Below are positions 4,899 to 64,000 of a stretch of 64,000 bases of DNA, piece after piece. Source of the DNA: Biomaibacter acetigenes (GTDB lineage: Bacteria; Bacillota; Thermosediminibacteria; Thermosediminibacterales; Tepidanaerobacteraceae). Position numbers and translations under genes: made by a program. The DNA lies in NCBI RefSeq assembly GCF_003691585.1, contig NZ_CP033169.1, positions 1,178,001-1,242,000 of the forward strand, in the 5' to 3' direction. The notes beneath the pieces were generated by a model. It did no database searches. It saw nothing but the letters and a program-made list of their open reading frames with translations, and was not told where the DNA came from. Position 1 is the stretch's first letter. Each line of letters starts with the position of its first letter.

Positions 4899-6642
4899 AT
4901 GCTCAAGACTAAGATTATATGCACTCTTGGTCCAGCCAGCGAAAATAAAGAGGTAATTTCCCGGCTGATATCAGCCGGGATGAATATAGCAAGACTGAAT
5001 TTTTCCCATGGGACCCATGAAGAGCACAGGGCAAGAATAAACAACCTGAGAGAAGCTGCACGGGAGATGGGAGCCAATATAGCCCTAATGCTGGACACAA
5101 GGGGGCCGGAGATAAGACTTGGCACCTTCAAAAATGGAAAAGCGTATTTGAAGGAAGGCCAGGAATTTGCACTCTCACTGGAGCCTATAGAAGGAAATGA
5201 AAATAGGGTTTATGTCACCTATGATGGTCTAAACAAACTCGTAACCAGGTATGATAAGATACTGCTGGCCGATGGCCTTATAGAATTGGAAGTCAAGGAA
5301 ATAAATTCAAAAGAGGTATTATGCACCGTTATAAACGGTGGAGAAATCAGCGATAAAAAGGGTGTAAACGTTCCAAACAAATCCCTTCCCCTACCTGCAA
5401 TAACACAGAAAGATGTGGAAGACCTCTTATTTGGCATAAGTATGGGCATAGACTTTGTGGCGGCTTCCTTTGTGAGAAAAGCTTCGGATGTGCTTGAAAT
5501 AAGAAAGATTTTGGAAGAAAACGGTGCCAGTGATGTCCACATAATAGCCAAGGTGGAAAACCGCGAAGGGGTCAACAACATCGATGAAATCATCCGTGTT
5601 GCTGATGGTGTGATGGTGGCCCGGGGAGACCTGGGAGTAGAGATACCCGTTGAGGAAGTGCCCCTGGTCCAGAAATACATCATTGAAAAATGCAATAAAG
5701 CGGGAAAACCCGTAGTCACGGCAACCCAGATGCTGGAATCAATGATGCGGAATCCAAGGCCTACCAGGGCGGAAACCACCGATGTGGCCAATGCCATTTT
5801 TGACGGAACCGATGCCATTATGCTCTCTGGTGAAACAGCCGCAGGCCATTATCCGGTGGAAGCGGTTAAAATGATGGCCAAAATAGCAAGAAAAGCCGAA
5901 GATTCCATGAGTTTAAAAAAAGGAAAAGGAACCCTCCGTGATAAAAACCATAACTGACGCCATCAGCCATGCTACATGCTCTATCGCCCGAGACCTGGGA
6001 GTCAAGGCCATTATAACATCCACCAAATCCGGGTATACTGCCCGGGCTGTAGCCAAATTCCGGCCGGAAGTCCCCATCATTGCAGTGACACCGAGGGAAA
6101 AGGTCACCAGGACGCTGCAGATTGTGCGGGGGGTATGGCCGCTGCAAGTTGAGGATACCCGGTCCACTGACGAGATGTTCAAAGAAGCGGTGGAAGGGGC
6201 TCTGAAATCAGGACTGGTGCAAAAGGGAGACATGGTGGTAATTACTGCGGGCGCGCCCGTAAATGTGACGGGTACTACCAATTTAATAAGAGTGCATATT
6301 GTAGGCGATGTGCTCTTAAGAGGTACCGGTATTGGCAGCAGGCCCGTGAGCGGGACGGTATTTGTAGCCAGGAATGCAAAGGAAGCCATGATAATGCCCG
6401 AAGGTTCCATCCTGGTAGTGTCCGGTACAGACAGGGATATAATACAGGTTTTACGACGCTCTTCGGCGGTCATAGCCGAAGAAGGTGGCCTAACATCCCA
6501 TGCCGCCATAATAGGTCTTGAGATGAATATACCCGTCATTGTTGGAGCCAAGGGGGCTACCGAACTGCTGGCCACCGGTGATGAAATCACCATGGACACC
6601 CAGCGGGGCCTTATTTACAGGGGAAAAGTCGATGTGAAATGA
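4899..6642 (+). CDS. pyk: Pyruvate kinase with C-terminal PEP-utilising domain (frameshift at an A7 run)
   Basis: Transfers phosphate from phosphoenolpyruvate to ADP. About 580 residues after repair. The N-terminal barrel has [29 protein letters not shown], the [12 protein letters not shown] site and TATQMLESM. The C domain follows from [17 protein letters not shown]. The last ~85 residues are the extra PEP-utilising (phosphohistidine-type) domain, with [21 protein letters not shown], typical of Firmicutes pyruvate kinases. The frame breaks at the A7 run 5916-5922; one A fewer gives [16 protein letters not shown] and rejoins the two halves. The start ATG 4899 lies 15 bases after pfkA. Confidence 0.95.
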
Positions 6643-54814: not shown

Positions 54815-55945
54815 ATGTCAAAAGTTGTATTGATGAAGTGCGCTGATTATGATCCTGAAGAAATACGGGAAAAGATAGAACATGCCTTAAGGATTTTAAA
54901 GGTGGATTTTGCGGATAAGAAAAAGATCCTTTTAAAACCAAACCTCCTCATGCGAAAAAAGCCCGAAGATGCCGTTACTACTCATCCAACAGTGGTACAG
55001 GCCATGATCGAAATACTAAAAGGATTCAGCGTGGAAGCAGTGGTGGCCGAAAGCCCCGGAGGACCCTATACCAAAAGAAGGCTTGAAGGAATATATGAGG
55101 CAACCGGTATAAAGGGGATATGTGACAATACCGGAGCCTTTTTAAATTATGATACATCATGGTTTGAAAAAAATTTTGAAGAAGGATACATGCTCAAAAA
55201 GATACCCTTTATATCACCGCTAAAAGATTGTGATGGCCTCATATCCCTGGCCAAGCTCAAGACTCACGGCATGGCTGTCTATACCGGGGCGGTAAAGAAC
55301 CTTTACGGCCTTATACCGGGGGGCCAAAAGGTGGAACTCCACTTTAAAATGCAGCAAATGGATCGGTTTATGGACATGCTCCTAGACATATATCTAGCAT
55401 CAAGGCCCATGCTTTCGGTCATAGATGGAATTGTTGCCATGGAGGGCAGCGGACCATCGGCCGGAGTACCCAGGAAACTGGGCGTGCTTATAGTATCGCA
55501 AGATGGAATTGCGGCTGATTTTGTGGCTTCAAAAATTATTGGCTTAAATATAAACGATTTTCCACTTTTGAAGTGTGCCATAAAGAGGGGGCTTTTCCGG
55601 GAAGACGGAGTAGAAGTTGTTGGAGATAGGCTAGAAGAAATAAATGTAAAAGATTTTAAATTTCCTAAGAAAAAAGATGTTTTGTTTTTGAAAGGGCTGC
55701 TGCCAGTTTGGCTTGAAAACTATTTTAAAGCATGGCTTACACCCAAACCGGTATTTATACATAAAAAATGCATTGGATGCAAAGAGTGTTTCAATACCTG
55801 CCCTGCAAAGGCCATAATGATGGTGAATAAAAGACCAGTAGTGGATTTAGACAAATGCATAAGATGCTACTGCTGCCATGAACTCTGCCCGGAAAAAGCT
55901 ATAAATATCGATAGAGCTTTTATTTTTAAAACCATTCTAAAATAA
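54815..55945 (+). CDS. DUF362 protein with C-terminal 2[4Fe-4S] ferredoxin domain
   Basis: 376 residues. The N-terminal DUF362 domain (about 1-300) contains KKILLKPNLLMRKKPEDAVT, ESPGGPYTKRR and AKLKTHGMAVYTGAVKNLYG. The C-terminal ferredoxin has two CxxCxxCxxxC(P) clusters: CIGCKECFNTCPAKAI and CIRCYCCHELCPEKAI. It is likely a cytoplasmic iron-sulfur redox protein; the reaction of the DUF362 family is not established. ATG 54815 follows TTTGGAGGA. It is 37 bases from the ClC gene and may be co-transcribed. Confidence 0.88.
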   Translation: MSKVVLMKCADYDPEEIREKIEHALRILKVDFADKKKILLKPNLLMRKKPEDAVTTHPTVVQAMIEILKGFSVEAVVAESPGGPYTKRRLEGIYEATGIKGICDNTGAFLNYDTSWFEKNFEEGYMLKKIPFISPLKDCDGLISLAKLKTHGMAVYTGAVKNLYGLIPGGQKVELHFKMQQMDRFMDMLLDIYLASRPMLSVIDGIVAMEGSGPSAGVPRKLGVLIVSQDGIAADFVASKIIGLNINDFPLLKCAIKRGLFREDGVEVVGDRLEEINVKDFKFPKKKDVLFLKGLLPVWLENYFKAWLTPKPVFIHKKCIGCKECFNTCPAKAIMMVNKRPVVDLDKCIRCYCCHELCPEKAINIDRAFIFKTILK

Positions 55946-55982
55946 TAAATCGACTTTTTACAGATAAAGGGGGTTTAAAAAG

Positions 55983-57563
55983 TTGAGAGTCAAAAAAAGT
56001 GGAATTTATAATACTTTGATAAATTGGAGGGATTTTAGACAGAAAATCATAGCCGAAGGCCTTGTCGTTGGCATTTTTGCGGGAGCCATTGCCGCCCTGT
56101 ATAGGTTTATTATAAAAGAAGCCGATCTTTTTCGGGAACAAATATACCATATATTACGGTCCAGCGGTTATGCCGTAATTCTTGTCTGGTTTGTATTTCT
56201 GCTGGTGGCGGCCTACATTCTCGGCATGATGGTTAAAAAAGAACCATTGGTGAGCGGCAGCGGAATTCCTCAGGTAAAGGGTGTATTATCCGGCCAGATG
56301 CACATGAAATGGCTCAGGGTCATCATATATAAATTTGTAGGCGGCATCATCGCTCTGGGCGCGGGTCTTTCCCTGGGCCGGGAGGGACCGTCGGTCCAGT
56401 TGGGAGCTGCAGCGGGGCAGGGCGTAAGCAGGATGCTTGGAAGACTTAAAGTAGAAGAAAAGTACCTTATTACCTGCGGTGCCAGCGCGGGGCTATCTGC
56501 AGCTTTTAGCGCCCCTCTGGCAGGAGCCATGTTTGCCCTGGAGGAACTGCACAAGAACTTCTCACCGCTGGTACTGGTGCCTGCTATGGTAGCATCAATG
56601 ATCGCAGGTTTCATCTCCCATCAGTTTTTTGGACAGGTACCGGTATTTAATTTTGGGAGGCTCAATCCACTACCGTTAAAATATTACTTTTATGTGCTCA
56701 TATTGGGAATAATAACCGGGGCCTTCGGGGTGGCCTTTAACCTGGCCCTGGTAAAAACTCAGGAAGGTTTTAAAAAACTCCAGTTCGTAATGCCCGAATT
56801 AAAACCGGCCATTCCTATAACCGTGGCAGGTATACTGGGGTTTATCCTGCCGCAGGTGCTTGGCGGAGGCAATGCCCTGATAAATTCCCTGGATAGAATG
56901 AAATACTCCGTGGGTTTTATAATGATATTGTTGGCTGTGAAATTTTTATTCACGATGGTAAGTTACGGTTCGGGCGTTCCCGGGGGTATATTTTTACCTC
57001 TATTGGTCATAGGAGCATTGACCGGTAATCTCTATGGCTCCTTAATAGTAAATGTATTGCACCTAAACCCCGCCTATGTAAATAATTTTATTGTCCTGGC
57101 CATGGCAGGTTATTTTTCCGCCATAGTAAAGGCCCCTATCACCGGCGGCATACTCATAACCGAAATGACCGGGTCTTTTGTCCACCTGCTGGCATTGACC
57201 CTTATTTCCATAACATCATATCTTACGGCGGACCTGTTAAAAGGTGAGCCCGTTTATGATATTTTGCTGGAAAGGATGCTGGCCGGGAACAAATCCGAAA
57301 AAAATATCCCAGGTGCGGGGAGGAAAATTCTTATGGAGATACCGGTTTGCGTGGGTTCCGAACTGGACGGGAAAAAGATTAAGGATGTGGAATGGGACCC
57401 TCACTGTCTGCTGGTAGGCATAAACAGGGGGACTTCAGAGATCATACCAAGGGGCAATACCAGGATATATCCGGGAGATTATCTTGTGGTGCTTGCCGAT
57501 GAGGGAAGGGCTGTAACCATAAGGAAAAAATTGTTAGATATGACTGAAATTACCGAAAAGTAA
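55983..57563 (+). CDS. ClC-family chloride transporter with C-terminal RCK/TrkA-C domain
   Basis: 526 residues. The ClC selectivity motifs are SGSGIPQVKGVL, the GREGPSVQLGAAAGQG block whose Glu is the gating glutamate of the family, and YGSGVPGGIFLPLLVIGA. About ten hydrophobic helices. The last ~75 residues (GSELDGKKIKDVEWDPHCLL, then GDYLVVLADEG) form a TrkA-C/RCK-C domain, a common regulatory add-on in prokaryotic ClC proteins. Likely a H+/Cl- exchanger (or fluoride-unrelated anion antiporter). TTG 55983 is preceded by AAAGGGGG. Confidence 0.92.
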   Translation: MRVKKSGIYNTLINWRDFRQKIIAEGLVVGIFAGAIAALYRFIIKEADLFREQIYHILRSSGYAVILVWFVFLLVAAYILGMMVKKEPLVSGSGIPQVKGVLSGQMHMKWLRVIIYKFVGGIIALGAGLSLGREGPSVQLGAAAGQGVSRMLGRLKVEEKYLITCGASAGLSAAFSAPLAGAMFALEELHKNFSPLVLVPAMVASMIAGFISHQFFGQVPVFNFGRLNPLPLKYYFYVLILGIITGAFGVAFNLALVKTQEGFKKLQFVMPELKPAIPITVAGILGFILPQVLGGGNALINSLDRMKYSVGFIMILLAVKFLFTMVSYGSGVPGGIFLPLLVIGALTGNLYGSLIVNVLHLNPAYVNNFIVLAMAGYFSAIVKAPITGGILITEMTGSFVHLLALTLISITSYLTADLLKGEPVYDILLERMLAGNKSEKNIPGAGRKILMEIPVCVGSELDGKKIKDVEWDPHCLLVGINRGTSEIIPRGNTRIYPGDYLVVLADEGRAVTIRKKLLDMTEITEK

Positions 57564-57699
57564 CACCGGAACCGGATTTCGGCGGTTGTGTAAAAACCTG
57601 ATGGAAGGGTATCGGATAATACGGGGAAGCACTTAAATTTGCCAGAGAGCTGGGCTAAGGCTGGCGGAATGAAATAAGGTTTTGTAAAGGGGTGTACAT

Positions 57700-58245
57700 A
57701 TGTACCGCCCATTTCTTTTTGCAGCTGTATTTTTTTTGTCCGGGGTCGGGGCAGGGAGTTTTATAAGAAATCTGTGGGTTTTTCTATCTTTAGCTTTGCT
57801 TTGCCTGATAATCTTATTTTTAATAAAGAAAAAGAGGATAAGGGCCGCTTTTGTTGGGCTATTGATCTTTTTTACCGGTGCCCTTTATTATAATTTAAGG
57901 GCCGATGGTATAGCCGGCACCATTGTAAAGTATGCTGGAAAACAGCGGTCCGTAATAGGGATGGTCAATGATTCCCCTACCATTGAATCCGACAGGGTAA
58001 GATATGATATAAAGGCTTTATACATAATAGAAAACAATACATACCAAAAGGTCTCGGGAAGAATATTTTTGTCCGTGCCCCGGGATGAAAAAAACCGCAG
58101 GGTGTTCCGATACGGGGATGTGGTGAAATTTTCAGGCAGACTCAAGCTGCCGCAGGAAAAACGCAACCCTGGAGGCATGGATTACAGGGCCAGCCTGCTG
58201 CAAAAGGGTATTTCCACCACTATGTTTTCCCGGGAAATAGAGTAA
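57700..58245 (+). pseudogene. comEC: comEC 5' fragment, interrupted by an integrated element
   Basis: 181 codons covering the N-terminal membrane helices (YRPFLFAAVFFLSGVGAGSF and a second pair near residues 25-65) and the DUF4131 OB-like domain, up to PQEKRNPGGMDYRASLLQKG. In ComEC this RNPGGFDYR-like block is followed by the competence channel domain and a metallo-beta-lactamase domain, giving 700-800 residues. Here the frame ends at 58245, where a phage-type integrase region begins. ComEC imports transforming DNA, so natural transformation would be blocked while the element is present. Confidence 0.8.
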
Positions 58246-58255
58246 ATTGCTATTA

Positions 58256-58283
58256 ATCCTTGATAAATCAAGGGTATTTTTTA
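58256..58283 (+). terminator. Hairpin with T tract at the element's left edge
   Basis: CCTTGAT and ATCAAGG around an AA loop, followed by GTATTTTTTATTT on the plus strand, just after the comEC stop. Confidence 0.6.
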
Positions 58284-58284
58284 T

Positions 58285-58317
58285 TTCGTCAAAAATTCGT
58301 CAAAAATTAGTTAAAAA
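58285..58317 (+). repeat. Three tandem 11-base repeats at the integrase 3' end
   Basis: TTCGTCAAAAA, TTCGTCAAAAA and TTAGTTAAAAA lie head to tail at exact 11-base spacing (about one helical turn), running from the attachment side into the integrase stop codon. They fit arm-type integrase binding sites. Confidence 0.6.
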
Positions 58318-59386
58318 TTTTGTTAACAATTTTTTTAACCCGATTCATCATATCGCTGGTGACGTGAGAGTATGTACGTATTGTTTGCTCCACATCATGG
58401 CCCAGAAGTTTGGCGACGGTCTCAAAATCAACTCCCTCTGAAAGGAGTAAAGTGGCAAATGTATGCCGCAGATCGTGGATAGATATATTGAAGCCAGCTT
58501 TTTTGTAATGGGCCCTTAACAAATTCGCTATAGATTGTGTATCTGCGTATGGAATAATGCGGCCATCAATGCTCGCAGGTGTATTTTTTATATATTCTTT
58601 TAGAGCTTCGAGCAGACTTGGTGGAGCAGGGACTTCTCTGTTTGATTTTTTCCTTTTTACTGGGCCGAATCCCCATGTACCGTCTTTTCGTATTTTCCAT
58701 TGTTTATTAATACGAATAATGCCTTTCTTAAAATTTATATCTTTTCTGGTTAGCCCGAGGATTTCTCCGATCCTTAATCCGGCTTTTGCTGCAATTAGTG
58801 ATACTATATAATGTTTTGGATTTTTAATACTGTCAAGCAGATTATCTAATTGGGATTTGGTCAAGGCTTTAACTTTTTCATTGTCTTTGTTTTCAGGAAT
58901 TGTAATGCCGGTAACAGGATTTTCAGTAATAATCTTATGCGGCTTTATAGCATTGCTAAAAAGAGTGGAAAGTTTTTTTGTATACACTTTTATGGTTGAT
59001 GGTTTAATGCCTTCTTTTACCATTTTATCAATACAATTTTGAACGTGCAGGCTTGTAATTTTAGCAAGTTCAATGTCGTTTAAATCTTTAAATTTCCTAA
59101 AAGCCGTTCGATATCCTATTGCTGTATTACCTTCTTTATATAAGGCCACATGATTTAAGAACATCTTTGAAAATTCCCCGAATGTAATACTCTCGTATTC
59201 AGTGCTGAGACTCATCTCGAACTGCTTTTTCAATTCCTCCAGCCGTTTATCCGCTGCTCGTTTTGCTTCTCTTTGCCCCTTAAATCCTTGTTTTGATTTC
59301 TGCCGCCACTTTCCATTTTGATCTTTATAGCTGATAATGTATTGCCAGCCGCCGTCTTTTTGACGATATGTGATGTTGTAATCCAT
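58307..59386 (-). CDS. int: Site-specific tyrosine recombinase (phage integrase)
   Basis: 359 residues. An AP2-like/arm-binding N-terminus (YNITYRQKDGGWQYIISYKD), a core-binding SAM-like domain (about 60-160), and a catalytic domain with LIAAKAGLRIGEILGLTR (first Arg), HDLRHTFATLLLSEGV (His-x-x-Arg), LLGHD (His) and the nucleophile Tyr339 in IRTYSHVTSDMM. All catalytic residues are present. ATG 59386 has an AAGGAGG site. It integrates and excises the element, presumably at a site in comEC. Confidence 0.95.
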   Translation of the reverse strand: MDYNITYRQKDGGWQYIISYKDQNGKWRQKSKQGFKGQREAKRAADKRLEELKKQFEMSLSTEYESITFGEFSKMFLNHVALYKEGNTAIGYRTAFRKFKDLNDIELAKITSLHVQNCIDKMVKEGIKPSTIKVYTKKLSTLFSNAIKPHKIITENPVTGITIPENKDNEKVKALTKSQLDNLLDSIKNPKHYIVSLIAAKAGLRIGEILGLTRKDINFKKGIIRINKQWKIRKDGTWGFGPVKRKKSNREVPAPPSLLEALKEYIKNTPASIDGRIIPYADTQSIANLLRAHYKKAGFNISIHDLRHTFATLLLSEGVDFETVAKLLGHDVEQTIRTYSHVTSDMMNRVKKIVNKIFN

Positions 59387-59402
59387 GCTTGTACCTCCTT
59401 CC

Positions 59403-60215
59403 TTAATAAGTTTTTAGGGCCATTATAACACGGCCTTGAATTCTTACATCATCTTTTTCAATATTATACATTGCAGGTTGATGTATAGGGTTAGTAGACA
59501 TCGGGATTAGGGTTATCATGTTATGATTTAATACTACTTTTTTAACTGTAGCCTCATATCCATTTATTAAAACCACACCTATTTGTCCACTTTCTAAATA
59601 ATTCGTCTTTTCAACAAGAACCCAAGTTCCGTCCTGAAATTCTAAGTTCATGCTATCCCCTTTAACTCTAAGAAGAAAATATTGCTTGTCTTGTTCTAAG
59701 AAATAAGTATCGATAGGCATATAGCCTTCCAAATTTTCTTCTGCTAGAATAGGTTGTCCTGCTGCAATTTTCCCGACTTTAGGAACATACCTAACTTGTC
59801 CAAGGGGACGGTACGAGGAAGGATCTATATTTTGATCAATATGCTTGTGTGGTTTTTCATGTTTTATCGTATTTATTATATGCTTTATGAGTTTTTCGGA
59901 AATTCTGTTTTGGGCTTCTTGCCCCAGCTTGTCTAGAAGTTCAGGATCATTTAGATCTATATTTTGCAAACCGATTTTTTTAGCTTCTTCCAAAATATTA
60001 TCATCGATAATTTTATTTAAATCATCTTCAATTAATGCTGCTATTGAAACCTCTAAAGCATCAGCAATTTTGTTCAATGTTTCAATGCTAGGATTTCTGT
60101 AACCTTTTTCAATATTAGTTAGACTTCCTGGATGTATGCGTGCTTTAGCGGCTAAATCTTGTAAGGCTATTCCTTTCTCTGTTCTTATTTTTCTTATATT
60201 TTCTCCTATTGTCAT
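59403..60215 (-). CDS. CI/LexA-like phage repressor with S24 protease domain
   Basis: 270 residues. An N-terminal XRE helix-turn-helix (IRKIRTEKGIALQDLAAKAR, then GSLTNIEKGYRNPSIETLNK) is joined by a charged linker to a C-terminal S24 peptidase-like domain. This has the likely self-cleavage Ala-Gly in KIAAGQPILAEE, the Ser in RVKGDSMNLEFQDG and the Lys in GYEATVKKV. Such repressors maintain lysogeny and are inactivated by RecA-stimulated cleavage. The gene faces the integrase and diverges from the Cro-like gene across an operator-rich gap. Confidence 0.92.
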   Translation of the reverse strand: MTIGENIRKIRTEKGIALQDLAAKARIHPGSLTNIEKGYRNPSIETLNKIADALEVSIAALIEDDLNKIIDDNILEEAKKIGLQNIDLNDPELLDKLGQEAQNRISEKLIKHIINTIKHEKPHKHIDQNIDPSSYRPLGQVRYVPKVGKIAAGQPILAEENLEGYMPIDTYFLEQDKQYFLLRVKGDSMNLEFQDGTWVLVEKTNYLESGQIGVVLINGYEATVKKVVLNHNMITLIPMSTNPIHQPAMYNIEKDDVRIQGRVIMALKTY

Positions 60216-60334
60216 TTCTCACACCTCTTTTATATTTTTTTCTGTCAGACAAAAATATTATATAACATCATTTTATTTTTGTCTATAAGAAAATAAAAGA
60301 ATTATTAAGATAATTAAAGTAAGATTGTAATAAA

Positions 60335-60403
60335 TTCGTCTCTATGACAAAATACGAGTTTGAATATACTCTTTATATAGATTAAAATTGTCATAGAGAC
60401 GAA
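60335..60403. promoter_or_regulatory. Operator region: perfect 16-bp inverted repeat
   Basis: TTCGTCTCTATGACAA at 60335-60350 and its exact complement at 60388-60403 flank 37 bases that include a promoter. Further GACAAAA/TTTTGTC half sites occur at about 60248-60255 and 60275-60282 next to the repressor start. The arrangement suggests repressor or Cro binding sites. Confidence 0.65.
60360..60388 (+). promoter_or_regulatory. Rightward early promoter
   Basis: TTGAAT at 60360-60365 and TAAAAT at 60383-60388, 17-base spacer. The -10 element abuts the right arm of the inverted repeat, so bound protein would block it. Confidence 0.55.
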
Positions 60404-60416
60404 CGGAGGGGTCTAA

Positions 60417-60632
60417 ATGAACAAAATAAAGATTTTGAGAGCAAAAAATAAAATATCTCTTAAACAGCTTGCTGAAAAAACAGGATTATCAATAGGATAT
60501 TTAAGTCATCTTGAAAATGGTTCAAGAAATAATCCCTCCAAAGAGACAATGGAGCGAATTGCAAAAGCTCTAGGGGAAACAGTACATGAAACCTTTTTCC
60601 CAGAAGAGAGGAAGGGATATATGAATGAATGA
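60417..60632 (+). CDS. Cro-like XRE-family regulator
   Basis: 71 residues, essentially one XRE helix-turn-helix: ILRAKNKISLKQLAEKTGLS, GYLSHLENGSRNNPSKETME, ending ETFFPEERKGYMNE. First gene of the rightward operon, behind a CGGAGGGG site and the candidate early promoter. By position it is the Cro counterpart of the S24 repressor. Confidence 0.88.
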   Translation: MNKIKILRAKNKISLKQLAEKTGLSIGYLSHLENGSRNNPSKETMERIAKALGETVHETFFPEERKGYMNE

Positions 60633-60674
60633 AATTCAACAGTCTTCGATCTAAATAATTGGGGGGTAGGATGA

Positions 60675-60989
60675 ATGATTCAAAAAGACTTAAGTTTGTT
60701 AACCAGACGAAAGATGTATTCAATTCTTACGCATTTACAGACAAAAACGGAATTTCCGCGAGCAAGACAGATATTCACTAACACACTCAAATTTTTCGAT
60801 GACAAATGCCCTGGATGTGGTGCAGAAAGCGAAAAGAGTAGGCTGGTGCGGATATTCAGAGAAGACTCCGATTTCGATATCGCCACCTACATCTGCCCCA
60901 AATGTGGCACAATTTACCGCAAATATGAAGACAAAAGAAAACCCATCCAAGGGGACCTCTTGGAGGCGGTATCATGGATAGACTCCTGA
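60675..60989 (+). CDS. Zinc-ribbon phage protein
   Basis: 104 residues with CPGCGAESEKSRLVRIF near residues 45-61 and ICPKCGTIYRKYEDKRK near 73-89, forming a four-Cys zinc ribbon. Its 3' end overlaps the next gene by 16 bases. Function unknown; small zinc-ribbon proteins are common in phage early regions. Confidence 0.65.
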   Translation: MIQKDLSLLTRRKMYSILTHLQTKTEFPRARQIFTNTLKFFDDKCPGCGAESEKSRLVRIFREDSDFDIATYICPKCGTIYRKYEDKRKPIQGDLLEAVSWIDS

Positions 60990-61264
60990 CTCAACAAGAC
61001 CTCGCCAAACGGTGGCAAGTTTCCGTCAGAGCAATAGAAAAATGGCGAGCCGAAGGAATTCTTCAACCCGCTAAAGGTATACCGGCCATACGGTTTACTC
61101 CGGAATATATAGCAGAGCTTGAAGGTGTTGAACTGGCAAAGACATCACCATTGCAGGTCAAACGGTTAGAGCGGGAGATAGAGGATCTTAGGCGAGAGAA
61201 TGAAGAGTTAAAGGGGATTATTGCTAAAGTGCTGGCAGAAACATCAAAAGTGATTAACTTATAA
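60974..61264 (+). CDS. MerR/excisionase-like helix-turn-helix protein with coiled coil
   Basis: 96 residues. The N-terminal helix-turn-helix LLTQQDLAKRWQVSVRAIEKWRAEGI with a winged RFTPEYIAELEG is of the AlpA/excisionase type. The C-terminal half (VKRLEREIEDLRRENEELKG) is a leucine-zipper coiled coil. It may be the element's excisionase or a small regulator. It overlaps the preceding gene. Confidence 0.7.
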   Translation: MDRLLTQQDLAKRWQVSVRAIEKWRAEGILQPAKGIPAIRFTPEYIAELEGVELAKTSPLQVKRLEREIEDLRRENEELKGIIAKVLAETSKVINL

Positions 61265-61319
61265 GTTTGACATACCAATAAAGATTGTTGGATGCCAATC
61301 AAAGGGGAGGATGATGATA

Positions 61320-61820
61320 ATGAAACAAAGGCAGATAACTAAAAATCAGTTTGAAAAATTTCTCAAGGCCAATAACCTCACTATAAAAATTATCCCGGTC
61401 TGGGAAGGTGCCACAGACAGATACAAAATGGAAGTCTATTACAAAGGGCACCTGATCGCCGATGGTAACGAGTTTTACAAAAAAGAACCGAATTATACTT
61501 GGGCCTATGAATACATCATGGATCTCACCGGTAGCTATGAATGGGAAAAATATGTTGATGTTGAAAGGTTCAAGACAATTGAGGAAATCGAAGAAATTGA
61601 GGAAGATATGAGAAGGATGGAAGAAATAAAAGTTAATCTTACAAAGGACGAAGTACTTAACTTATTAACTGCTGCACAATGTTTAAGCGAACGCAAGCAA
61701 AAAACATTAAAGTTATATCAAGATATCAACCTTAGTGAAAATTTTCAAAATTCAACTATAGAAGAAATAAAATTGCTTGACTCCGCATATAAAAAGCTGT
61801 TTCAGGCACTACTTTACTAA
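61320..61820 (+). CDS. Hypothetical phage protein
   Basis: About 166 residues. Aromatic-rich N-terminal half (IIPVWEGATDRYKMEVYYKG, YTWAYEYIMDLTGSYEWEKY) and an acidic helical C-terminal half. ATG 61320 is nine bases from GGGGAGG (61304-61310), whereas the ATGs at 61311 and 61314 sit on it. No family recognised. Confidence 0.6.
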   Translation: MKQRQITKNQFEKFLKANNLTIKIIPVWEGATDRYKMEVYYKGHLIADGNEFYKKEPNYTWAYEYIMDLTGSYEWEKYVDVERFKTIEEIEEIEEDMRRMEEIKVNLTKDEVLNLLTAAQCLSERKQKTLKLYQDINLSENFQNSTIEEIKLLDSAYKKLFQALLY

Positions 61821-61867
61821 TACCCAAAATTTTTGAATAAAAAGTGGACAAGGGGGAGGTGAGGAGA

Positions 61868-62032
61868 GTGGAAAAATATCAAGTTGAATTTAAGCAACAA
61901 ATAAAAATAGCGGAAAAGATTATACGACTACTGGAAGATGAAAATGTTAAAATTGCTGATGTGCCTAAAATATGTGAAAAAGTAATTTCACTTTCTGGTA
62001 AATCGCCAGTTAAATGGACTGAAATAGATTAA
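61868..62032 (+). CDS. Small hypothetical phage protein
   Basis: 54 residues from GTG 61868, helical: EKYQVEFKQQIKIAEKIIRL, ending SGKSPVKWTEID. GGGGGAGG (61852-61859) is the ribosome site, which excludes the upstream GTG 61844. Function unknown. Confidence 0.5.
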   Translation: MEKYQVEFKQQIKIAEKIIRLLEDENVKIADVPKICEKVISLSGKSPVKWTEID

Positions 62033-62052
62033 TTATAGGGGAGGTGAGAAGG

Positions 62053-62124
62053 ATGGAAGAAGAAATGATACGGTTTAGGTACATTACTGATGACGAAAGA
62101 AAAGAGATAAATTCCGTAAGCTAG
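62053..62124 (+). CDS. Short ORF with strong ribosome site
   Basis: 23 codons, MEEEMIRFRYITDDERKEIN then SVS, behind GGGGAGGTGAGAAGG. Possibly a truncated or frameshifted gene; nothing recognisable follows in the other frames. Confidence 0.3.
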   Translation: MEEEMIRFRYITDDERKEINSVS

Positions 62125-62175
62125 TAGCTTCAAAGAATTTATCTCGGGAGGATCTAGTTTTAATATTAACATCCA

Positions 62176-62472
62176 TTAGTTTGAATTACGATATTTTTCC
62201 ACAAGGCTTGTTAGAGAAGACTCTAGGAATTCGAAAGTTGTAACATTTTCAATAACTTCTAAATTCACTTTGCCTGGTTTTAACTGCCAAAGATATATAA
62301 CAGCTTTCATCTTTTTACGACTGTTATTTAGCCCGGATACTTCTAATTCATAGTTATCATTAATTTTACGATAAATGACTTGTTCAGCATCTATAACTTT
62401 AATAGAGTAATCGGGACCTAATTTTGAACATATTTCTTTTAACTTTTTAGTTGGGCTTTTCACTTTAAACAA
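62176..62472 (-). CDS. Hypothetical protein on the opposite strand within the early region
   Basis: 98 residues from TTG 62472 (GGGAGG eight bases ahead; GTG 62481 overlaps the site). Contains KKLKEICSKLGPDYSIKVID, VIYRKINDNYELEVSGLN and VEVIENV-like VNLEVIENVTTFEFLE. Alternating strands suggest a small alpha/beta domain. It is the only leftward gene in the early operon, a typical position for an accessory (moron) gene; function unknown. Confidence 0.5.
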   Translation of the reverse strand: MFKVKSPTKKLKEICSKLGPDYSIKVIDAEQVIYRKINDNYELEVSGLNNSRKKMKAVIYLWQLKPGKVNLEVIENVTTFEFLESSLTSLVEKYRNSN

Positions 62473-62532
62473 ATCAAACACCTCCCTTCAGAGAAATTTT
62501 ACCATAATTCAGGAGAAAGGAGGGCAGTGATT

Positions 62533-62799
62533 ATGCTAAAGGAAGAACTCGAAAGAGAAATCAATAGCATCACTCAACAGCTTAATGAATGTAACCGAAT
62601 TATCGCCTTAGCTGTAGAAGCCGCCCAAAAAGCAGACAAGCTCCGAATAGAATTAAAAAAGCTTATGATTGAATACCTAAAAATTGATACAGCAAAAGCC
62701 GAAATAAAGCCGCTTTTTATCTTTCAAGGCAAAACAAAAGACCTTCTCAAAGAGCTTGAGAAGGCACAAAACCACTCACCCTCATTTTACCACTGGTAA
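62533..62799 (+). CDS. Hypothetical coiled-coil phage protein
   Basis: 88 residues, largely helical: LKEELEREINSITQQLNECN, LAVEAAQKADKLRIELKKLM. AAGGAGGG at 62517-62524 supports ATG 62533 rather than GTG 62527. Function unknown. Confidence 0.55.
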   Translation: MLKEELEREINSITQQLNECNRIIALAVEAAQKADKLRIELKKLMIEYLKIDTAKAEIKPLFIFQGKTKDLLKELEKAQNHSPSFYHW

Positions 62800-62824
62800 A
62801 TGAGGGAATCAAGGGAGAGATAAT

Positions 62825-63043
62825 ATGTTAACAAAATGTCCCCTGAAACCAAGAAAAACTATAGTCGGCAAAGATAGAAGAGATAATGAAGTGCCTCTTA
62901 ATGAAGCAAGCTACAAAGAAGAAGAGGTATATGACTTTGGTGAATGTATCCATAAAGAATGCGCTTTCTGGAGCACCGATGCTGAGTGTTGCGGCATTCT
63001 GTTATTATCAGATACCGGCATGTATTTTAGTATGCGAATATAA
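62825..63043 (+). CDS. Small cysteine-containing phage protein
   Basis: 72 residues with CPLKPRKT near the start and a Cys cluster FGECIHKECAFWSTDAECCG, arranged like a small metal-binding knuckle. Ribosome site GGGAGAGA. Similar short Cys proteins occur in Firmicutes phages; function unknown. Confidence 0.5.
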   Translation: MLTKCPLKPRKTIVGKDRRDNEVPLNEASYKEEEVYDFGECIHKECAFWSTDAECCGILLLSDTGMYFSMRI

Positions 63044-63061
63044 AAAGGAGGCCGAAACATA

Positions 63062-63286
63062 ATGCCAGACAAAGAAATAAAGTTTGAAATCATACAAAAT
63101 CTTGGGATCCTCTCTACATCTCCAAAGGGATGGAGAAAAGAAATCAATTTGATCAGCTGGGATGGCCGAGAACCAAAATACGATATCCGGGATTGGGACC
63201 CTGAACATAAAAGAATGAGTAAAGGTATTACGTTGACAACTGAAGAGCTGAAAAAGCTGAAGGAGGTCCTAAATAAGTGGAATTAA
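63062..63286 (+). CDS. YdbC/PC4-family ssDNA-binding protein
   Basis: 74 residues. NLGILSTSPKGWRKEINLIS and WDGREPKYDIRDWDPEHKRM match the strand pattern of the YdbC (transcriptional coactivator p15/PC4-like) family, which binds single-stranded DNA as a dimer. Ribosome site AGGAGGCC. It overlaps the next gene by ten bases. A role in element replication or transcription is likely. Confidence 0.85.
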   Translation: MPDKEIKFEIIQNLGILSTSPKGWRKEINLISWDGREPKYDIRDWDPEHKRMSKGITLTTEELKKLKEVLNKWN

Positions 63287-63732
63287 AACAAGTGACTATC
63301 AAAAAAGCTGTACCACCAGATCTGCCTGGCGCAAAAATTACGGTGTTCGGAAAAAACTACATAGGCACCAAGCACTATTTAATCAGAGAAGATATAGCAC
63401 CAAAGGCCTTTATCTCCGCAGTAAACGGCCTAAGTGAAATTAGAGTTCTCAACGCACCAAGTCTTGAAGGCTATTTCAAGGATGATTTTTATCACTGCTC
63501 TGATATAGATGCAGAAACTGGGCTTATTAAAGATAAAGTCATAGATGGTAAAAAGCTTTTAATTATTATGATCAAAACAGAAGCAGGCCCTGTTTATGTA
63601 AATTACAACTATTATTGCTATCTTAAAAGATTAAAATTGGAATTTCGATTTAACACACCTACATTGCCCATAGGTTTATTCAAAAATAACGAACTTGTCG
63701 GGATTTTATGCCCGATAGAATTAAAAAAGTAA
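63277..63732 (+). CDS. Hypothetical phage protein
   Basis: 151 residues from GTG 63277, inside the end of the PC4-like gene, with AAGGAGG upstream. Strand-rich: KQVTIKKAVPPDLPGAKITV, KLLIIMIKTEAGPVYVNYNY and LKLEFRFNTPTLPIGLF, ending ELVGILCPIELKK. This could be a sliding-clamp-like or beta-barrel domain, but I cannot assign it. Confidence 0.55.
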   Translation: MELKQVTIKKAVPPDLPGAKITVFGKNYIGTKHYLIREDIAPKAFISAVNGLSEIRVLNAPSLEGYFKDDFYHCSDIDAETGLIKDKVIDGKKLLIIMIKTEAGPVYVNYNYYCYLKRLKLEFRFNTPTLPIGLFKNNELVGILCPIELKK

Positions 63733-63752
63733 ATCAAAAGGAGAGAGAAACC

Positions 63753-64000
63753 GTGGATATGAACATCAGTATAAAAATCGACGCACCTGAATTGGCAGGT
63801 GCCATTCAAGCCCTGGCCGCAGCTTTGCTTGAAATGTCCAAACCTGTATCTGAATCCATGCCAACACCTGAACCAGAACCGACACCAATAGCACAATTTA
63901 AACCATCACCAACAGCTGTCCCGACTACCCCTATATCAACATCACAACCGATACCGGAACCGGTAATAACACCCGCACCCCCGACAACTGTTCCAACTAC
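63753..64000 (+). CDS. Pro/Thr-rich protein, 3' end outside window (partial)
   Basis: GTG 63753 follows AAAGGAGAGAG and opens a frame with no stop before the window ends, at least 82 codons. A short helical N-terminus (NISIKIDAPELAGAIQALAA) is followed by a long low-complexity Pro/Thr/Glu/Ser tract (TPEPEPTPIAQFKPSPTAVP and on). The tract looks like a linker between the N-terminal module and a C-terminal domain that lies outside. Function unknown. Confidence 0.6.
   Translation, partial: MDMNISIKIDAPELAGAIQALAAALLEMSKPVSESMPTPEPEPTPIAQFKPSPTAVPTTPISTSQPIPEPVITPAPPTTVPT

Follow-up and report, generated by a model that had tools for sequence, protein, structure and literature searches.

Prophages that reside in competence genes are already known, and they include examples in the comEC genes of streptococci. 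Phi1207.3 and Phi10394.4 of Streptococcus pyogenes are prophages in comEC (PMC4260502, PMC12587576, PMC4288039), and they resemble the element described here in that a site-specific prophage insertion interrupts the gene. However, they use serine recombinases and a GA dinucleotide where the present element has a tyrosine integrase and a 17-bp core, and they carry macrolide-resistance genes, whereas no resistance gene was found among the prophage proteins that were checked; the hosts are also distant from each other. Phages of the phi10403S/A118 type in comK of Listeria (PMC6872733) are similar in another respect, wherein insertion into a competence gene is paired with exact restoration of that gene on excision. 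In Listeria, comK encodes a regulator and its restoration during infection was measured, whereas comEC encodes the uptake channel and its restoration is predicted from sequence. The genes comYC and comFA also harbour prophages, comM harbours mobile elements (PMC4774983), and SpST71A is located in comGA (PMC7029219). These insertions likewise break the uptake machinery, which has been read as protection against transformation-mediated removal, but they involve other genes and integrases and none is reported at a Noc-binding site (PMC4774983, PMC7029219). The ComEC proteins of certain P. larvae prophages have been annotated as cargo (PMC9341999).

A second point of comparison is provided by the Noc-binding sites of Bacillus subtilis, which share with this locus the palindrome ATTTCCCGGGAAAT, a Noc protein with the residues QKKR and a distribution across the chromosome (PMC7383237, PMC8429893, PMC4331003). 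The Bacillus sites are host sites only, whereas the site predicted here doubles as a phage att core. What seems to be new, therefore, is a tyrosine-integrase phage in a comEC gene outside the streptococci, with an att core that appears to lie on a likely Noc site conserved at the level of DNA. No paper combining nucleoid occlusion, Noc, a prophage and an integration site was found in the literature searched, which was mainly open-access. We consider it very probable that a temperate phage has integrated by its own tyrosine integrase into the sole comEC gene of this host, that uptake would thereby be blocked and that the core sits on a likely Noc site kept constant by the host.

The host genome is a single contig of 3,398,311 bp, and the window, by which we mean the whole stretch of 64,000 nucleotides that was analysed, corresponds to genome positions 1178001-1242000. 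The 5′ part of comEC (window 57700..58245, plus strand) encodes residues 1-181 and a DUF4131 domain (Pfam, 1e-31), and no Pfam domain beyond DUF4131 is found in window 57700-58245. The adjacent gene (window 58307..59386, minus strand) is oriented toward the break and encodes a tyrosine integrase of 359 amino acids with Pfam arm-binding, SAM-like and catalytic domains. These domain assignments bear out a preliminary description of the locus, in which comEC was said to be cut after DUF4131 with an integrase lying head-on at the break. That description proposed a search for the rest of comEC at the far end of the element, and a 3′ part encoding the channel and nuclease-like domains is indeed present there, with the same orientation and at a distance of 42.8 kb downstream (genome 1279052-1280862, plus). 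In a search of the whole genome, the Competence domain PF03772 has a single location (genome 1279187-1279969), on the same strand as the 5′ part.

The two parts of comEC are joined to the element through a perfect direct repeat of 17 bp, TTTTCCCGGGAAATAGA. The attL core (window 58225..58241, plus strand) falls within comEC codons 175-181, and the identical attR core is located at genome 1279052-1279068, as anticipated when a repeat of the sequence near 58200-58260 was proposed. There are only two occurrences of TTTTCCCGGGAAATAGA in the 60 kb region, namely attL and attR. By a rough count, about 2e-4 perfect repeats of this length would be expected by chance between the compared stretches, an estimate that ignores the exact placement of this one at the homology break. 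The positions of the repeats give the element a length of 42,827 bp, of which the left 5.8 kb (window 58242..64000) are within the window and the remainder continues to genome 1279051.

In the integrated state, the comEC reading frame ends at a TAA stop contributed by the element just past the core. When the flanks are fused at the 17-bp repeat, precisely core to core, they form a single ComEC frame of 778 codons, such that excision would, on paper, restore the gene exactly. The gene without the element, which the preliminary description had singled out for comparison, is uninterrupted in a species of the same genus, and the fused flanks align with this intact comEC along 2,740 bp at 88.9% identity, without a gap across the junction. 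Neither of the two contrary outcomes named in that description, a missing 3′ part or a second intact comEC with the present fragment as an old relic, is borne out by the genome searches. There is no second comEC in the whole genome according to both a domain search and a full-length ComEC query, the only other partial match being a metallo-beta-lactamase-domain fragment at genome 1122298, and this rules out the relic beside another copy. The insertion is located inside a transformation gene of which no intact copy is left.

Across 398 genomes of the phylum, a survey confounded by contig ends, the matches listed include only two DUF4131 frames shorter than 200 amino acids, which are this comEC and a 192-amino-acid frame elsewhere in the phylum that contains an in-frame TGA (G134:C11:27821-28291). 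When IMG/VR was searched for further comEC-borne prophages, the one other match was confined to the metallo-beta-lactamase domain. The prophage itself is represented in IMG/VR by contig 2893925626_000001, whose 9,687-bp left end, the part compared, is 100% identical.

Inside each end of the element there is a 20-bp tandem repeat, CGTCAAAAATTCGTCAAAAA, which looks like the arm-type sites of integrases. The left copy (window 58287..58306, plus strand, a direct repeat) adjoins a terminator-like hairpin with an 8-bp stem and a predicted energy of -8.7 kcal/mol (window 58256..58288, plus strand), and the right-end copy is at genome 1278918-1278937. The same repeat is found at both ends of a Dethiobacter phage discussed below and in 33 IMG/VR stretches. 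It was rejected as a marker of comEC phages because it is common to the whole integrase group.

As judged from its gene content, the element is a contractile-tail temperate prophage. The integrase retains the residues R204, H303, R306, H329 and Y338, as placed by alignment with a 59%-identical relative and by motif position. Next to it is a gene for a CI/LexA-like repressor with helix-turn-helix and S24 peptidase domains (Pfam; window 59403..60215, minus strand), and the presence of Ala-Gly, Ser and Lys motifs suggests that this repressor is probably SOS-inducible. A Cro-like helix-turn-helix protein (Pfam HTH_3; window 60417..60632, plus strand) is encoded divergently from the repressor. A candidate excisionase, Xis (window 60974..61264, plus strand), is assigned by family match only (PHROG 7735 'excisionase', 7.6e-22) and has an 85% identical counterpart in the Dethiobacter phage. 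Other proteins include an exonuclease, a ssDNA-binding protein, a DNA polymerase and VapE-like and SNF2-like proteins. The packaging and structural set comprises small and large terminase, portal, head, protease, decoration, neck, sheath, tape measure, baseplate and fibre proteins, and lysis is represented by an endolysin and holins.

Two additional features of the prophage were observed. A HicA/HicB toxin-antitoxin pair is encoded at L004:1269-1911 (genome 1255269-1255911), and a XerC-like second tyrosine recombinase is encoded between the fibre and lysis genes at L005:1320-2464 (genome 1275320-1276464). The latter is preceded by a strong-promoter-like sequence and a leader some 100 bases long, and a similar additional recombinase is found near the attachment region of IMG/VR locus L104.

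The portal gene consists of two overlapping frames, L004:4656-5558 and 5516-6208 (genome 1258656-1260208), which correspond to successive portions of a single portal family. This frameshift may be a real mutation in a defective phage or an error of base calling, and it makes the production of virions doubtful. It is also the observation that might lead one to regard the element as an old, dead relic that is unable to leave, with comEC lost for good. We consider such a fate unlikely, since the att repeat is perfect, the integrase is intact, a candidate excisionase, arm sites and the other structural genes checked are present, and neither comEC part has acquired a stop codon.

The condition of the two comEC parts is also relevant to the age of the insertion. 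Relative to the sister species, the 5′ part has a dN/dS of 0.18 and the 3′ part, over 499 of its 597 codons, one of 0.15. These low ratios, together with the absence of stops, suggest that the insertion is young relative to the species split. They do not demonstrate repeated restoration of the gene, because they mostly reflect time before the insertion. The left flank also contains a tract (about 55900-58400, the chloride-channel gene and the 5′ part of comEC) that is 94-98% identical to the sister contig G001:C22 amid surroundings of about 86%. This tract fades gradually and is perhaps the product of homologous exchange. An apparent step in divergence from the sister at the att site (96% to the left, 83% to the right) was discarded because the change is gradual at finer scale, and it therefore gives no evidence of transfer together with the prophage.

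One possibility is that the phage operates in active lysogeny, wherein reversible, non-lytic excision restores comEC and turns DNA uptake on, in the manner of phi10403S and comK. The comparison with Listeria comK made in the preliminary description is fair as regards anatomy, given that the insertion is reversible, the target is a competence gene and the frame is restored in sequence. It is possible, then, that comEC serves as a reversible on/off switch. Consistent with active lysogeny are the exact restoration of the frame, the candidate excisionase and intact integrase, the stop-free comEC parts with their low dN/dS, the Listeria precedent itself (PMC6872733) and the portal frameshift, which, if real, would permit excision without virions. 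However, the dN/dS values speak mostly of the period that preceded the insertion, no feature of the element indicates a competence or growth-phase signal, and repressors of the S24 type usually respond to DNA damage, with lysis as the outcome. Ordinary prophage induction kills the cell. For prophages in competence genes more generally, the published data are better explained by a simple loss of transformation from which the phage profits (PMC4774983). Active lysogeny is an improbable account of this locus, and we favour simple integration by a temperate phage into comEC.

The position of the att core within comEC suggests why this particular spot might be used. The first 14 bp of attL (window 58225..58238), TTTTCCCGGGAAAT, match the palindromic Noc-binding consensus ATTTCCCGGGAAAT at 13 of 14 positions (PMC7383237; PMC8429893), and the inner 12 bp match it exactly. 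The core therefore likely contains a Noc-binding site, a feature that the preliminary description did not mention. Of 12 related genomes checked for the 17-bp core, ten retain it with no more than two mismatches, even though the ComEC proteins are only 35-95% identical. The compared comEC region was aligned codon by codon across 20 genomes from two families, and the fraction of identical codons given an identical residue reaches 0.91 over codons 175-180 and 0.89 over codons 176-181. These windows within codons 175-181 rank highest of 413 (mean 0.47, sd 0.105). The conserved letters are those of TTTTCCCGGGAAAT, and the final bases of the att core vary. Since conservation stops at the end of the palindrome and not at the end of the att core, the constraint fits the 14-bp palindrome and not the att core. 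Among the genomes checked from further afield in the class and phylum, comEC lacks the palindrome.

The host also encodes a protein suited to such a site. Its Noc scores 352 bits against TIGR04285, for which the curated cut-off is 315, and a separate ParB scores below this cut-off. The gene noc is located near the contig end, as are parB and a parS-like site that adjoins parB. At the specificity positions of the helix-turn-helix region, placed by eye after PMC7383237, Noc has Q, K, K and R, against R, T, N and G in this ParB. The sampled part of the chromosome (473 kb, prophage excluded; 473-504 kb were sampled for sites overall) contains three copies of TTTCCCGGGAAA, one in comEC, one inside noc (genome 3391300) and one at genome 3017180. 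By comparison, 1,280 palindromes of equal GC content occur there 0.02 times on average and none other reaches two occurrences, which makes this palindrome strongly over-represented in the sample.

These observations raise a different reading of the insertion, namely that the phage targets conserved Noc-binding DNA and not competence, such that the loss of ComEC is a tolerated by-product, much as with phages at tRNA genes. In its favour, synonymous conservation at the core is the highest in the comEC region compared, the core persists nearly unchanged in most of the related genomes and relatives of the integrase use unrelated genes. On the other hand, there are other near-consensus sites in the genome, and yet the insertion struck where the loss of a gene protects the prophage. 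Moreover, the closest relative of the integrase interrupts a pilus ATPase gene where the palindrome is lacking, and IMG/VR reveals no general link between palindrome and integrase. We regard this reading as a serious contender that falls somewhat short of an even chance.

The closest relative is found in a metagenome-assembled genome (MAG) of Dethiobacter alkaliphilus, and its 59% identity makes it the nearest integrase found. The corresponding phage interrupts a gene for a PilB/GspE-type ATPase; its two ends share a 19-bp core, ATATGGGCGTAAAACCTTA, and the insertion site lacks the Noc palindrome. The same pilB-like gene, which lies after a prepilin peptidase gene, is also split at its Walker A motif by a different phage, which encodes a large serine recombinase, and it is therefore in three pieces (G101:C21:20389-95203 and G101:C4:48759-49301). 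Uninterrupted homologues with 71-74% identity are found in related genomes. At the right end of the serine-recombinase phage there is a near-consensus Noc palindrome, ATTTCCCGGGCAAG (G101:C21:19936-19951; L041:9987-9998).

It is suggestive that each of the two nearest members of the integrase group disrupts a gene for DNA uptake or pili, through unrelated cores, a pattern that comprises two cases and draws on MAG contigs. A preference for competence genes in the group as a whole was rejected, because relatives at 37-52% identity adjoin guaB, pepT, an AIM24-like gene and others. A scan of IMG/VR for the Noc palindrome yielded 93 stretches with no consistent link to integrases. A general role for the palindrome as a phage attB was also rejected, given that two close cases appear to involve unrelated phages, one of them apparently at a tRNA gene.

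The consequences for the host can be judged from its other uptake genes, which include comEA, genes for pilB- and pilT-type ATPases and dprA. With these genes present, comEC is the component lacking from what is otherwise a plausible apparatus for uptake, and from the known role of ComEC we predict that the lysogen is not transformable. If DNA is no longer imported through ComEC, then the prophage should not be removable by transformation and homologous replacement. The insertion also affects the gene that follows comEC, which we take from its sequence to be holA. Only six bases separate the end of comEC from the start of this gene (L005:6855-6880), and this spacing indicates that the insertion also parts it from the comEC promoter. 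The holA-like gene is probably essential, and a promoter inside or after attR is implied. A promoter scan gave scores near chance and identified none.

The reading that we prefer can be put as a series of steps. The tyrosine integrase would insert the 42,827-bp phage genome at the 17-bp core in comEC codons 175-181, which would split comEC, abolish uptake through ComEC and so protect the integrated phage from replacement by recombination. Induction by way of the S24-type repressor would presumably excise the element. Each att junction appears to retain a copy of the Noc site, and there is good support in these comparisons for the proposal that the phage adopted a conserved host Noc site as its attachment core. 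Because the host holds this site constant at the DNA level, the attB of the phage would not be expected to drift.

The attP site would carry the palindrome too, and one might speculate that excised or replicating phage circles load Noc. Such circles might then move to the membrane and delay division of the cell. Multicopy plasmids with Noc-binding sites in B. subtilis recruit Noc, go to the membrane and block division (PMC4331003). That the phage both took the Noc site as its core and uses Noc on attP circles to delay division is nevertheless a tentative idea that we consider doubtful. It raises the question of whether phage DNA with a Noc-type site disturbs cell division. The overlap between the att core and the likely Noc site offers a reason for the constancy of the spot in comEC on which the phage depends. 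The locus represents an extra case, far from the streptococci, of a phage that would break DNA uptake to resist removal by transformation, and its clean attB, attL and attR sites are available for testing that idea.
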